Part shown: positions 1 to 48,722 of the stretch, piece by piece | Numbering within the stretch: the first letter of the stretch is position 1 | Layout: each line of letters starts with the position of its first letter | IMG/VR virus record: IMGVR_UViG_3300028392_000097 | Span: 1-48,722 of that record | From: a virus | Direction: 5' to 3' (one strand) | DNA: 48,722 bases | The notes under the pieces: generated by a model | Database searches by the model: none | Seen by the model: the letters and a program-made list of their open reading frames with translations, nothing else | Told to the model about the DNA's origin: nothing | Translations under genes and position numbers: made by a program

Positions 1-264
1 ATATCCATCAACGAAGAGGCAATGAACAGAGTTTTGCGTCAAGAGCAGATGACTCAGATGGAAACTGAATTGCGTGAAATGATTATTTATCAGGTTGGAA
101 TGCCCGGTCTTTGGTCAAAATTCACAGAAATGCGTGAGATTGTGCGTAAAGAGCGAGAAAAAGTCGAGCGTGAACAAAAAAAGCTGTGGCAGAAGTTGCG
201 TACAAACGTAGACTTCTTATTCAAAAATACCAAGTTCAAGCCACAATATACGCTGCAATTTTGA
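1..264 (+). CDS. Coiled-coil protein upstream of holin, probably 5'-partial
   Basis: The frame is open from base 1. The first ATG is at 22, but the GAGG before it is only 2 nt away, so the true start is probably outside the window. The visible product is highly charged (Lys/Glu/Arg) and strongly helical, with a coiled-coil-like stretch around residues 36-60 counted from the ATG. It has no membrane segment in its own frame. It lies directly before the holin and endolysin, so a role in lysis or its control is possible, but that is inference. At 177-183 the reading frame contains A AAA AAG in the correct phase for -1 slippage, and the -1 frame then encodes a membrane segment ending next to the holin start. 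I do not recognise the family. Confidence 0.6.
   Translation: MSINEEAMNRVLRQEQMTQMETELREMIIYQVGMPGLWSKFTEMREIVRKEREKVEREQKKLWQKLRTNVDFLFKNTKFKPQYTLQF
177..183 (+). other. Candidate -1 frameshift slippery heptamer (A AAA AAG)
   Basis: In the frame of the 1-264 gene the codons read caA AAA AAG, which is the canonical X XXY YYZ phase. The -1 frame has a stop at 171-173 and is then open to 344, so slippage here would enter the open frame immediately. I cannot see a convincing downstream pseudoknot. A 1-base sequencing or assembly error in this run of seven A is the main alternative. Confidence 0.45.
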
Positions 265-344
265 TCTTCGTGCTTGAGTTTGTAGGACTGATGTACTATG
301 TTCATAACGAGTATCAGAAGTCTAAGTATCATTTGGAGAAATAA
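183..344 (+). CDS. Membrane-segment ORF in -1 frame (frameshift extension or GTG-started small protein)
   Basis: After the stop at 171-173 this frame is open to the TAA at 342-344, which directly abuts the holin ATG at 345. It encodes about 53 residues: a basic stretch, a hydrophobic segment (ATIYAAILIFVLEFVGLMYY) and a short charged tail. It could be reached by -1 slippage at 177-183, giving a coiled-coil protein with a C-terminal membrane anchor, or by independent initiation at GTG 186, which has no good ribosome binding site. The zero-gap junction with the holin and the clean membrane helix argue that it is really translated. Its function is unknown; lysis control is a guess from position. 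Confidence 0.5.
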   Translation, partial: AVAEVAYKRRLLIQKYQVQATIYAAILIFVLEFVGLMYYVHNEYQKSKYHLEK

Positions 345-839
345 ATGGATTGGTTAAAGTCAATAGCACCCACGATAGCCACAGCTCTTGGCGGCCCACT
401 TGCTGGTCTTGCTGTCAACGCTGTCTCATCTGCTCTAGGTATAGACCCTAGTAAGGTAGAAGAAACCATACAGTCAGGAAAACTCAGCGCAGATCAAATA
501 GCATCTATCCAGCAAGCGGAACTTGGGTTGAAGGCTCGGGCGCAGGAGCTTGGTCTTGACTTTGCTAAGTTGGCTGTAGACGATAGAAAGTCTGCCAGAG
601 AACTTCAAGCCACAACACGCAGTTTTATCCCACCAGCCTTGGCTATTCTAGTCACGGTGGGTTTCTTTGGTATTCTGGTGGGCATGATGATGGAAACATT
701 CAGAACAAGTGAAGCTCTGATGTTGATGCTTGGGAGTCTAGGCACGGCTTGGACGGGGATCATTGCGTTCTATTTCGGGTCTTCTGCTGGTTCACAAGCA
801 AAAGATGATTTACTACACAAAAGCACACCCTCAAAATGA
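345..839 (+). CDS. Holin (GTA-holin-like, two visible membrane helices)
   Basis: This 164-aa protein has a helical, amphipathic N-terminal half (residues 1-90) and two hydrophobic helices at about 95-115 and 124-145. A short charged tail follows. This layout resembles phage holins of the GTA_holin_3TM type. Holins form lesions in the inner membrane that release endolysin to the cell wall at a timed moment. The ATG at 345 is preceded by GGAG inside the upstream ORF, and the stop overlaps the endolysin start as ATGA (836-839), so holin and endolysin are translationally coupled. Holin assignment rests on topology and neighbours rather than a catalytic motif. Confidence 0.75.
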   Translation: MDWLKSIAPTIATALGGPLAGLAVNAVSSALGIDPSKVEETIQSGKLSADQIASIQQAELGLKARAQELGLDFAKLAVDDRKSARELQATTRSFIPPALAILVTVGFFGILVGMMMETFRTSEALMLMLGSLGTAWTGIIAFYFGSSAGSQAKDDLLHKSTPSK

Positions 840-1267
840 CCATACTCACCAAAAACTTCACTCTTGAAGAGCTAACACACACCGATCATAGGGAGTTTTC
901 AAATGAACCTAACGAATCTGAAAGAGCAAATCTTGTCCGTCTCGCAGTCTTTTTGGAGCAAGTTAAAGAGCTTCTTGGTGGAAAGCCAATCATGGTTAAC
1001 TCAGGTTTTAGGTCTAAACAAGTTAACGACTCGGTTGGAAGCTCTGATCGTTCTCAGCATCGTGTGGGTTGCGCTTGTGATTTTCGTGTGCCTAATATGA
1101 CTCCCGATGAAGTCGTTAAATTAGTTATTGCCTCTGGTTTGGAGTATGACCAAGTCATCCGTGAGTTTGACCGTTGGACGCATATTTCAGTGCCAAACCA
1201 CCCAGACGATAAACCTAGACGGCAAGCACTTATCATTGATAAAATGGGTACAAGACCATACGCATAG
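836..1267 (+). CDS. Endolysin, M15-family (D-Ala-D-Ala carboxypeptidase-like) peptidase
   Basis: This 143-aa protein has the hallmarks of the peptidase M15_3 family, zinc enzymes that cleave peptidoglycan cross-link peptides. The motif SGFRS lies at residues 56-60. The zinc ligands fit H75 and D82 in SQHRVGCACDF, and H116 in WTHIS. It has no signal peptide, so export depends on the upstream holin, with which it shares an ATGA overlap. Length is normal for a single-domain M15 lysin without a cell-wall-binding domain. A second ORF with its own ribosome binding site is embedded in the +1 frame (903-1100). Confidence 0.88.
   Translation: MTILTKNFTLEELTHTDHREFSNEPNESERANLVRLAVFLEQVKELLGGKPIMVNSGFRSKQVNDSVGSSDRSQHRVGCACDFRVPNMTPDEVVKLVIASGLEYDQVIREFDRWTHISVPNHPDDKPRRQALIIDKMGTRPYA
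903..1100 (+). CDS. Embedded out-of-frame ORF with C-terminal membrane helix (candidate lysis accessory)
   Basis: This 65-aa ORF lies wholly inside the endolysin gene in the +1 frame. It starts with ATG at 903, preceded by GGGAG at 891-895 with 7-nt spacing, a better ribosome binding site than many genes here. Residues 1-44 are polar and helical. Residues 47-65 form one hydrophobic segment (LIVLSIVWVALVIFVCLI). Nested lysis genes are known in other phages (for example Rz1 inside Rz, or the single-stranded RNA phage lysis proteins), so a lysis role is plausible. However, the conserved M15 motif can itself produce a hydrophobic string when read in +1, so chance is a real alternative. Confidence 0.4.
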   Translation: MNLTNLKEQILSVSQSFWSKLKSFLVESQSWLTQVLGLNKLTTRLEALIVLSIVWVALVIFVCLI

Positions 1268-39962: not shown

Positions 39963-40676
39963 ATGACTATTCAGCTACACCCTGAACATACCGTCCCATA
40001 TCCAACCTCACTTGAGCCGGATGTGCCGTCGACCCTTCGCGAGAATATGCAGATCGCCGCAAACACAGCCGCGCTGCTTCGCGGGCTTGAAGGAATAGAG
40101 GACGAAGAAATCGACGAACCAAACAACGACCCCCGTATCCAAGCTCACGCGGACAAAGTATTTAAAGACTTTGCAGAGCTGGCCGAGCAACAGTTTGAAG
40201 AAACAATTGAGGACAAGCCGAAGAAGAAAGGCCGCGCCCCTAAACCGTCAACCAATCCTAGAGAATTAGAAAGCAGGTCTGTTGCTGAACGGATCGGCGC
40301 GATGCTTCAAGAGTACAACAGCCAGATAGTCGCGGATGCAGCAGAGTTACGCCAAGTGACTATTAATAAACTGCTTGACCTGACGATGTGTGGTGATCCA
40401 AGAATTGAGATAAAGGCTACAGAACTTTTGGGCAAAGTATCGGATGTGGGATTGTTTACAGAGAAGACCGAGATCACGGTTACTTACAATTCTGTCAGCG
40501 ATATAGATAATGCGATCAAGGATAAGATTAGAAAGATGATGAGACTGCATGCTCAAGAGGTAACTACGATTGACCTAGATGTGGAAAAAGAGTTAGGGTT
40601 AACCCCAGCTATTGAGTATACGGACGTCGTGCCTAAAGATTCGTTTGAGGAGCCCGAGGAACCCGAAGATGCGTGA
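39963..40676 (+). CDS. terS: Terminase small subunit (probable)
   Basis: This is a 237-aa protein starting at ATG 39963; an in-frame TTG at 39942 with no good signal is the alternative, and the nearest GGAG is far (17 nt) from the ATG, so the start is uncertain. A Pro/Lys linker (PKKKGRAPKPSTNPRELE, residues ~88-105) precedes a helical domain (RSVAERIGAMLQEYNSQIV, VTINKLLDLTMCGD) and an acidic tail. Small terminases recognise packaging sites and stimulate TerL. The identification rests on direct adjacency (8-nt overlap) to TerL and on size and architecture. Confidence 0.7.
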   Translation: MTIQLHPEHTVPYPTSLEPDVPSTLRENMQIAANTAALLRGLEGIEDEEIDEPNNDPRIQAHADKVFKDFAELAEQQFEETIEDKPKKKGRAPKPSTNPRELESRSVAERIGAMLQEYNSQIVADAAELRQVTINKLLDLTMCGDPRIEIKATELLGKVSDVGLFTEKTEITVTYNSVSDIDNAIKDKIRKMMRLHAQEVTTIDLDVEKELGLTPAIEYTDVVPKDSFEEPEEPEDA

Positions 40677-42198
40677 GCAATCGGTAGAAACCCTAGATCC
40701 TGAATTTAAGTTGCTCTTGGCGCAGCTAGATAAACTGCCCCAAGCGAAGAAAGAATTGATACTTAAAGATCTAGAGCATCGCGAACAGATGATGGAGAAG
40801 GAGCTGGCACAGAAAACCTTCATGGGTTTTGTCAATCAGGTGTGGCCAGAGTTCATTTCGGGGCGGCATCACAAGATTATGGCCAAAGCGTTCGAGCGAG
40901 TTGCCAACGGCGAGTGTAAAAGGCTGATTATCAACATGCCACCACGGCATACCAAGTCTGAGTTTGCGTCTTATTTGCTTCCCGCATGGTTTTTGGGCAA
41001 ATTCCCCAATAAAAAAGTGATCCAGAGCTCAAATACGGGTGAATTGGCGGTAGGATTTGGTAGAAAAGTACGTAATTTGGTTGATTCTGAGAACTATAAG
41101 GCTATTTTTCCTACTTTGCACTTGCAACAAGACTCAAAAGCTGCGGGGCGGTGGAATACCAGCAAGGGCGGCGACTATTTTGCGATCGGAGTGGGCGGAA
41201 CGGTCACCGGAAAAGGCGCGAACCTGTTAATTATTGATGATCCACACTCTGAACAGGAAGCTGCATTAGCTGCGGGCAACCCGGAAGTGTTCGACAAGGT
41301 GTATGAGTGGTACACGTCAGGCCCGCGTCAGCGTTTGCAGCCGGGCGGGGCGATTGTGATCGTGATGACGCGTTGGGCGCAACGAGATTTGACGGGCCAA
41401 GTACTCAAAGCAGCCGCAGCCAGAGGCGGGGAGCAGTGGGAAGTGATTGAGTTTCCTGCGATCATGCCCTCGGGTTTACCCGTATGGCCAGAGTTCTGGT
41501 CACTGCCTGAATTAGAGGCGTTGAGGAACGAGTTGCCCAACTCGAAGTGGCAAGCGCAGTATCAGCAAAACCCAGTGGGTAATGAGAGCGCGATTGTTAA
41601 GAGAGATTGGTGGCAATGGTGGGAGGAAGAGAAACCGCCGAGATGTGATTATGTTTTGCAGACCTGGGATACTGCGTTTGAGAAGAACCAGCGGGCTGAC
41701 TATTCAGCGGGCACGACTTGGGGGATATTTTATTTGGATGAGGATAAGAACAAACCTCATATTATCTTACTGAATACTTACAAGAAACGGGTTGAGTGGG
41801 TAGAACTTAAACGGGATGTATTGGAAGAATATAACGAGTGGGAGCCGGATGGGGTTCTTATAGAAAAGAAAGCAACAGGCGCTCCTCTTATTTATGAGCT
41901 GCGGGCCATGGGGATCCCTGTTCAGGAATATACGCCCAGTCGAGGCCAAGACAAAATCGCCCGTTTAAATTCCGTATCGGACATAATAGCGAGTAAAAAA
42001 GTTTTTCTGCCACGCACAGCTTGGGCTGAAGAGTTGGTTGACGAGATCGCTGCGTTCCCATCAGGGGAACATGATGACTTGGTTGATGCGACGACCCTAG
42101 CGTTGATGCGGTTTAGGCAAGGTGGATTTCTACGGTTGCCCATTGATGAGCCCGATGAGATTCAGTATTTCAAACGTCGCAACGCGGCTTTCTATTAA
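40669..42198 (+). CDS. terL: Terminase large subunit (ATPase and nuclease)
   Basis: ATG 40669 has GAGG upstream and overlaps the small terminase stop; product 509 aa. It translocates and cuts DNA during packaging. The ATPase has a variant Walker A PPRHTKS (residues 91-97), Walker B LLIIDDP (186-192) and a coupling-type VMTRWAQ motif (233-238). The nuclease domain has D334 (QTWDTAF), E399 (VLIEKK) and D470/D473 (HDDLVDAT). The PPRHTKS/WDTAF pattern fits the TIGR01630-type terminases common in podoviruses. Confidence 0.95.
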   Translation: MREQSVETLDPEFKLLLAQLDKLPQAKKELILKDLEHREQMMEKELAQKTFMGFVNQVWPEFISGRHHKIMAKAFERVANGECKRLIINMPPRHTKSEFASYLLPAWFLGKFPNKKVIQSSNTGELAVGFGRKVRNLVDSENYKAIFPTLHLQQDSKAAGRWNTSKGGDYFAIGVGGTVTGKGANLLIIDDPHSEQEAALAAGNPEVFDKVYEWYTSGPRQRLQPGGAIVIVMTRWAQRDLTGQVLKAAAARGGEQWEVIEFPAIMPSGLPVWPEFWSLPELEALRNELPNSKWQAQYQQNPVGNESAIVKRDWWQWWEEEKPPRCDYVLQTWDTAFEKNQRADYSAGTTWGIFYLDEDKNKPHIILLNTYKKRVEWVELKRDVLEEYNEWEPDGVLIEKKATGAPLIYELRAMGIPVQEYTPSRGQDKIARLNSVSDIIASKKVFLPRTAWAEELVDEIAAFPSGEHDDLVDATTLALMRFRQGGFLRLPIDEPDEIQYFKRRNAAFY

Positions 42199-48545: not shown

Positions 48546-48553
48546 TAAGATTA

Positions 48554-48579
48554 GGGGGCCTTGCGCCCCCTTTTCTTTT
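48554..48579 (+). terminator. Rho-independent terminator after major capsid gene
   Basis: GGGGGC (48554-48559) pairs with GCCCCC (48565-48570), loop CTTGC, followed by TTTTCTTTT (48571-48579). It would limit readthrough from the capsid genes into the next gene. Confidence 0.9.
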
Positions 48580-48678
48580 GATGTATATTAGAACCATTCC
48601 GGGCTTTCCGGTGTATCAAACAGTCCCGGCTGATGACATACCAATTGATACACTTAACTTGTATGTAAGGAGATCCTC

Positions 48679-48722
48679 ATGGGATTCGCAACTCACCTAG
48701 GCCCTTGGTTATTGGGCACTGT
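48679..48722 (+). CDS. Start of structural gene, cut by window end
   Basis: ATG 48679 with AAGGAG 6 nt upstream; the visible peptide is MGFATHLGPWLLGT and continues out of the window. Similar 'MGFATHLGPWLLGTVK' openings belong to small head or adaptor proteins following the capsid gene in aquatic phages, as far as I recall. Only 14 residues are visible, so function cannot be assigned. Confidence 0.6.
   Translation, partial: MGFATHLGPWLLGT

Follow-up and report, generated by a model that had tools for sequence, protein, structure and literature searches.

A conserved programmed -1 ribosomal frameshift, by which one gene would give rise to a soluble and a membrane-anchored protein, is the likeliest reading of the gene at the left end of the viral DNA analysed here; from the comparison of related sequences we put the probability of this reading at roughly 0.9. 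The stretch of DNA that was analysed (the window) comprises 48,722 bases and corresponds to positions 1 to 48,722 of the IMG/VR virus record IMGVR_UViG_3300028392_000097. Ribosomes would translate the gene in frame 0 up to the heptamer A AAA AAG, where a fraction of the tRNA-Lys pairs would slip to AAA AAA, a step that a hairpin located 8-12 nt downstream, and perhaps also an element upstream, would assist. Unshifted ribosomes would reach a stop 26-41 codons further on and release a helical, soluble protein whose tail is unconstrained. Ribosomes that shift would extend the chain by about 48-55 residues, which include one membrane helix, and their product would have the architecture found in those more distant relatives in which the whole protein is encoded by a single open reading frame (one-ORF relatives).

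The probable shift site and the frame under selection

The gene is truncated in the window by the left contig edge. Complete ORFs of relatives (L002 and L014) begin about 210 nt further upstream than this edge (MDPITIFAACKAAHAGI...), so that the 0-frame product would comprise about 157 aa; its codons 71-157 are located at 1..264 (plus strand, like all features of this region), and the first 210 nt lie outside the contig. For the subgroup of the window, 131 residues up to the slip, 157 aa for the unshifted and 184 aa for the shifted product are predicted, and across the entire frameshift group the soluble form would have 157-172 aa and the anchored form about 178-187 aa. The part common to both isoforms (1-183) ends with CAAAAAAAG (175-183). 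As the 0-frame codons are CAA (175-177), AAA (178-180) and AAG (181-183), the heptamer A AAA AAG (177..183) occurs in the phase X XXY YYZ, as stated in a preliminary description of this DNA. The same description located a stop of the -1 frame at 171-173 and an open -1 frame up to 344, ending at the ATG of the next gene. Both statements are correct: a TGA occurs at 171..173, six bases 5' of the heptamer, and past the slip no stop interrupts the -1 frame until the TAA at 342-344, which is directly adjoined by the ATG at 345. The -1 tail (183..344) consists of 53 codons and the TAA and contains a predicted membrane helix at about 246-302, and the peptide segment of the shifted product that spans the shift is predicted to be EREQKKAVAEVAYK. 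The tail of the unshifted form (184-264) consists of 26 aa and the stop.

AAAAAAG was observed 24 times in the window, while 18.4 occurrences are expected, so that the heptamer by itself proves nothing and its conservation is the evidence. Loci were collected by two scans of viral contigs, one with the 87-aa fragment and one with the next gene, which together yielded 160 loci; a profile scan added more. A script identified an in-phase slippery heptamer and, behind it, a -1 ORF encoding a membrane helix at 174 loci, some of them from the same contigs, which represent 80 distinct sequences from a large set of freshwater bacterial viruses (the frameshift group). L087 and L179 were left out because of an apparent frame break 5' of the heptamer. 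Counted by locus, the heptamer is A AAA AAG in 169/174 and A AAA AAA in 5/174, and the latter are five distinct sequences, each with a run of nine A. The codons CAA AAA AAG are invariant in all 33 dereplicated main-group representatives, as are GAG CGT shortly before them, which means that synonymous variation is reduced at the shift site; upstream of the heptamer, CAG accounts for 58% of the glutamines and AAG for 25% of the lysines in this group. The preliminary description had proposed conservation of the heptamer and of the -1 ORF in relatives as a test, and both are conserved among the 80 distinct sequences.

Homopolymer runs are the usual sites of indels, and the frame change might therefore be due to an assembly or sequencing indel in the A run, as was also considered in the preliminary description. 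The run comprises seven A in 70, six in 5 and nine in 5 of the 80 distinct sequences, which stem from many separate metagenome assemblies, and in none of them has an altered A run restored the frame to a single ORF. In addition, selection tracks the shifted frame. An indel can be regarded as excluded for all practical purposes.

Upstream of the heptamer, the mean pairwise variability at the 0-frame codon positions 1, 2 and 3 is 0.29, 0.20 and 0.51, and downstream of it 0.33, 0.585 and 0.41. The third-position signal moves by one base exactly at the heptamer, which indicates that it is the -1 frame, and no longer the 0 frame, that is under purifying selection from this site onward. The median NG86 estimates for frame 0 are dN 0.084 and dS 1.50 upstream (dN/dS 0.06) and dN 0.64 and dS 0.55 downstream (dN/dS 1.2), and those for frame -1 downstream are dN 0.39 and dS 1.39 (dN/dS about 0.28); since the compared sequences share kinship, these figures are descriptive and do not represent a formal test on independent events. 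Downstream, the amino acid sequences are on average 56% identical in frame -1 versus 33% in frame 0. Conservation of the -1 tail extends from the heptamer onward, the position of the 0-frame stop varies from codon 26 to 41 after the slip, and the 0-frame tail of the unshifted form appears, from these comparisons, to be free of selection.

A second in-phase A AAA AAG is located on the minus strand at 23764-23758, where a 108-aa HNH-like ORF has seven codons left, and from there the -1 frame continues without a stop for 466 codons into a SNF2-type helicase (24066-22358, minus strand; 461-aa frame). This candidate was rejected, because the helicase possesses its own ATG, which overlaps the stop of the HNH-like ORF, and the arrangement looks like an ordinary gene overlap.

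Elements flanking the shift site

A stimulatory hairpin is predicted at 191..217 of the window, with a stem that begins 8 nt after the heptamer (-9.9 kcal/mol, z -4.0), and in nearly all representatives a hairpin starts some 5-12 nt after the heptamer, with a register that varies among the subgroups. When 39 representatives were compared with controls obtained by synonymous-codon randomisation, in which the -1 protein was kept, stability peaked in the 42-nt stretch from 12 nt after the start of the heptamer (mean z -1.8; 64% of the sequences below -1.5). The signal was gone further downstream, and a second, weaker one was found about 160 nt upstream (mean z -1.2). The downstream hairpin seems to be selected beyond codon constraint, the evidence for this being stability and not pair-level covariation. 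Rfam yielded no match within positions 1-700 of the window.

The same two products would also result from transcriptional slippage, in which the polymerase adds or drops an A and generates a mixed mRNA pool. The run of seven A, or of nine A in L094, L095, L105 and L107, would be compatible with this, and the hairpin is absent in L094 and L095, two of the nine-A representatives. In contrast, the group of L086, L090, L099 and L104 has a run of only six A and nevertheless keeps the heptamer, the final G is retained in all members with six or seven A, which fits slippage of tRNA-Lys, and the downstream hairpin appears to be selected. Transcriptional slippage is hence improbable as an explanation for the group, while polymerase slippage is possible in the nine-A members named above, whose run (CAAAAAAAAAGG) carries A AAA AAA as the shift site.

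A possible upstream element is the sequence GAGCGT at 166..171, in which GAG and CGT each occur in 33/33 main-group representatives, compared to a usage of 55% and 28%, respectively, elsewhere. A bulged pairing of GAGCGUGA with the anti-Shine-Dalgarno (SD) sequence of the 16S rRNA, with the C bulged, would be weak (about -8 kcal/mol). Only 6/80 sequences contain a motif of the published SD-like set at a distance of 6-17 nt (criteria from PMC4066793), and a canonical SD is missing in 74/80. For this reason, a canonical upstream SD stimulator, as in a dnaX-type cassette, was rejected, and a role of GAGCGT as a stimulator that pairs with the anti-SD is suggestive only.

The -1 shift in dnaX of E. 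coli shortens the product. Here, it would lengthen the product and add a membrane helix, and the upstream SD of dnaX is absent from most of the sequences, as described above. Common to both are A AAA AAG, a hairpin a few nt downstream and two C-termini from one gene (PMC5009743). In E. coli, A AAA AAG ranks with the most efficient heptamers (PMC4066793), and the host of the virus investigated here may have a different tRNA-Lys set.

Two predicted protein forms and their one-ORF relatives

The contrast between a soluble and a membrane-anchored product, which the preliminary description had predicted, is supported by hydropathy: the 19-residue Kyte-Doolittle maximum is 2.15 for the -1 tail and -0.55 for the 0-frame tail. 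It is further supported by homologues encoded by one ORF, in which a C-terminal membrane helix is present in frame (53 further loci with 42 distinct C-termini; MW202701, MW202710 and MW202462, which are complete public virome genomes, belong to this type). AlphaFold predicted a four-helix fold for the soluble part (pLDDT 81), with three shorter helices and a long one, and in a one-ORF relative the long helix continues through the membrane segment.

Good Foldseek matches were restricted to uncharacterised phage proteins. Among public structure predictions, A0A6J5KX90 (157 aa, 72% identity) is the nearest; it is only as long as the unshifted product, so that the anchored product was probably missed in its annotation. 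Both the full frameshift product (E 1.7e-9) and the one-ORF relatives (E 3.2e-8) match phrog_32327, for which no function is recorded. Pfam gave nothing convincing for the frameshift protein, no known family of holins or antiholins was matched by its sequence, the 87-aa stretch had no relative in INPHARED, and the frameshift gene was not found in the bacterial genomes searched.

In an hhalign comparison, the profile of the shifted product aligned with that of the one-ORF proteins without a gap through the slip site (62 columns, probability 97.8). The post-slip tail alone gave a weaker match to the one-ORF C-terminus (29 columns, E 8.8e-5, probability 60). Most one-ORF relatives have about 120-270 nt between the one-ORF gene and the holin-like gene, and in most of those examined this region holds a small membrane gene, which is lacking from those frameshift members whose frameshift gene is directly followed by the holin-like gene. 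The small gene encodes about 50 aa (a membrane helix and a charged helix) and begins within the 3'-terminal codons of the one-ORF gene (ATGGGGTTTTTAG), as seen in L147, L150, L136, L152, L134, L142 and others. This overlap mimics G GGT TTT; a second frameshift at this motif in the L147 group was rejected, since start and stop overlap and the next gene begins at ATGGGGTTTTTAG or TTGGGG.

The small gene, which overlaps in the -1 frame and has its own ATG or TTG, raises the question of whether the -1 tail is likewise a separate small membrane protein with its own start, the two genes merely overlapping. The GTG at 186 in the window, which opens an ORF of 52 aa, would be such a start. However, this GTG is not conserved among the members, 11/39 representatives lack any ATG, GTG or TTG in the part of the -1 frame that extends from the shift to within the membrane helix, many members have no such codon between the upstream stop of this frame and the helix, and the tail is conserved right from the heptamer. 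Moreover, the tail matches the one-ORF C-terminus with the values given above, whereas its match to the small gene reaches a probability of only 8. Two overlapping genes are thus very improbable, and the idea that the -1 tail is a fused copy of the small downstream gene was rejected, as the profile comparison gave no support for it.

A maximum-likelihood tree of 51 sequences placed the frameshift members on one side of a branch with a support of 95/97, and with midpoint rooting they were nested among the one-ORF members; owing to long branches, the root of this tree is uncertain. Most likely, judging from the sequences, the frameshift was gained once by an ancestor that made only the plain anchored protein and has been kept since.

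Position in the lysis region and possible function

The frameshift gene is located in a lysis-cassette position, between tail-fibre-like genes on one side and a holin-like gene and an endolysin gene on the other. Directly after the -1 stop, a 164-aa protein with hydrophobic C-terminal segments is encoded at 345..839. This gene had been called a holin in the preliminary description. One relative annotated as holin in a public record agrees with this designation, but the family that it matches, phrog_1544, has no assigned function in PHROGs, and it is regarded here as a holin-like candidate. The endolysin gene at 836..1267 encodes a member of the M15 peptidase family (phrog_894, 9.8e-33; Pfam Peptidase_M15_3, 2.2e-16). 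At 127/143 loci with enough 3' sequence the holin-like gene follows next after the frameshift gene, mostly touching or overlapping it, and the M15 endolysin is present at 136/143 frameshift loci with enough sequence.

In L014:3347-5235, other genes take the place of the usual downstream ones: one for an Rz-like spanin, within which a second frame is embedded, one that is lipoprotein-like, and one for a protein of 79 aa that matches the holin-like gene only over the C-terminal membrane part of the latter. The true Rz-like spanin is separate from the frameshift gene and next to it in this contig. An identity of the frameshift protein as i-spanin (Rz) was rejected, because its membrane helix is C-terminal and not N-terminal before a periplasmic coiled coil.

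Further features were noted in other parts of the window. After the capsid gene, at 48546-48722, a sequence resembling a terminator (GGGGGCCTTGCGCCCCC with a T-rich run behind it) is followed by a gene start (MGFATHLGPWLLGTV) that is truncated by the contig edge. The named phages nearest to the terminase large subunit (40612-42195) are Phage DSL-LC04 and the pelagiphages HTVC027P and HTVC023P.

The link to lysis is positional, and a role of the frameshift protein in lysis is suggested by the order of the genes. In the model that we prefer, both forms would have a helical domain for oligomerisation in common and would work at the inner membrane, and the ratio of soluble to anchored protein would tune the neighbouring holin-like protein or another lysis step. 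We tentatively propose, at somewhat less than even odds, that this is a lysis-timing device in which the ratio is fixed by the frameshift, and that it was gained once in freshwater phages, where it replaced an anchored-only version with loss of the small gene.

As the 0-frame tail shows no sign of selection, the frameshift may merely throttle the anchored form. The shift would then be real, only the anchored protein would work, the short form would be a by-product, and the slip would hold the anchored and perhaps toxic protein at a low, fixed level. The unconstrained 0-frame tail (dN 0.64, dS 0.55) with its stop wandering from codon 26 to 41 is in line with this, as is the fact that the one-ORF relatives make the anchored form only. 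On the other hand, a weaker start site would be a simpler route to the same effect. The domain preceding the slip would be strongly conserved under either model, and its conservation therefore does not separate them; overall, a mere throttle seems rather unlikely.

Conserved frameshifts of tailed phages are known mainly from tail chaperone genes and virion structural genes. The lambda G/GT tail assembly chaperone resembles the case described here in being a phage gene with a conserved -1 shift near its 3' end that adds a C-terminal extension at a set ratio (PMC5009743, PMC10885494). The gene in the window is a different one, found in the lysis region after tail-fibre-like genes; its extension is a membrane anchor instead of a domain that binds the tail tube, and its relatives use one plain ORF. 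An identity as tail assembly chaperone G/GT was rejected, because the gene is not located before a tape measure gene. Short and extended forms, with counterparts that are read in frame, are also known from the frameshifts in phage capsid and tail proteins with Ig domains and in T7 gene 10 (PMC5009743). Unlike the protein discussed here, those are structural proteins with surface domains and without a membrane helix. In the holin/antiholin system of lambda S, two forms are produced from dual start codons. Here too, one gene in the lysis region would provide two forms that differ in membrane topology, with the differences that a frameshift takes the place of two starts and that the protein is no recognised holin.

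The mechanism as such, a hairpin-assisted -1 shift at A AAA AAG, is well known (PMC5009743, PMC4066793), and in open-access text no earlier report was found of a phage gene in the lysis region whose product gains a membrane anchor by frameshifting. If it is true, the membrane-anchor frameshift would extend the range of uses known for recoding and would constitute a fixed-ratio route to two protein forms in a lysis-region gene. The frameshift branch and its one-ORF relatives would, in addition, provide a natural before-and-after comparison of what the shift adds.
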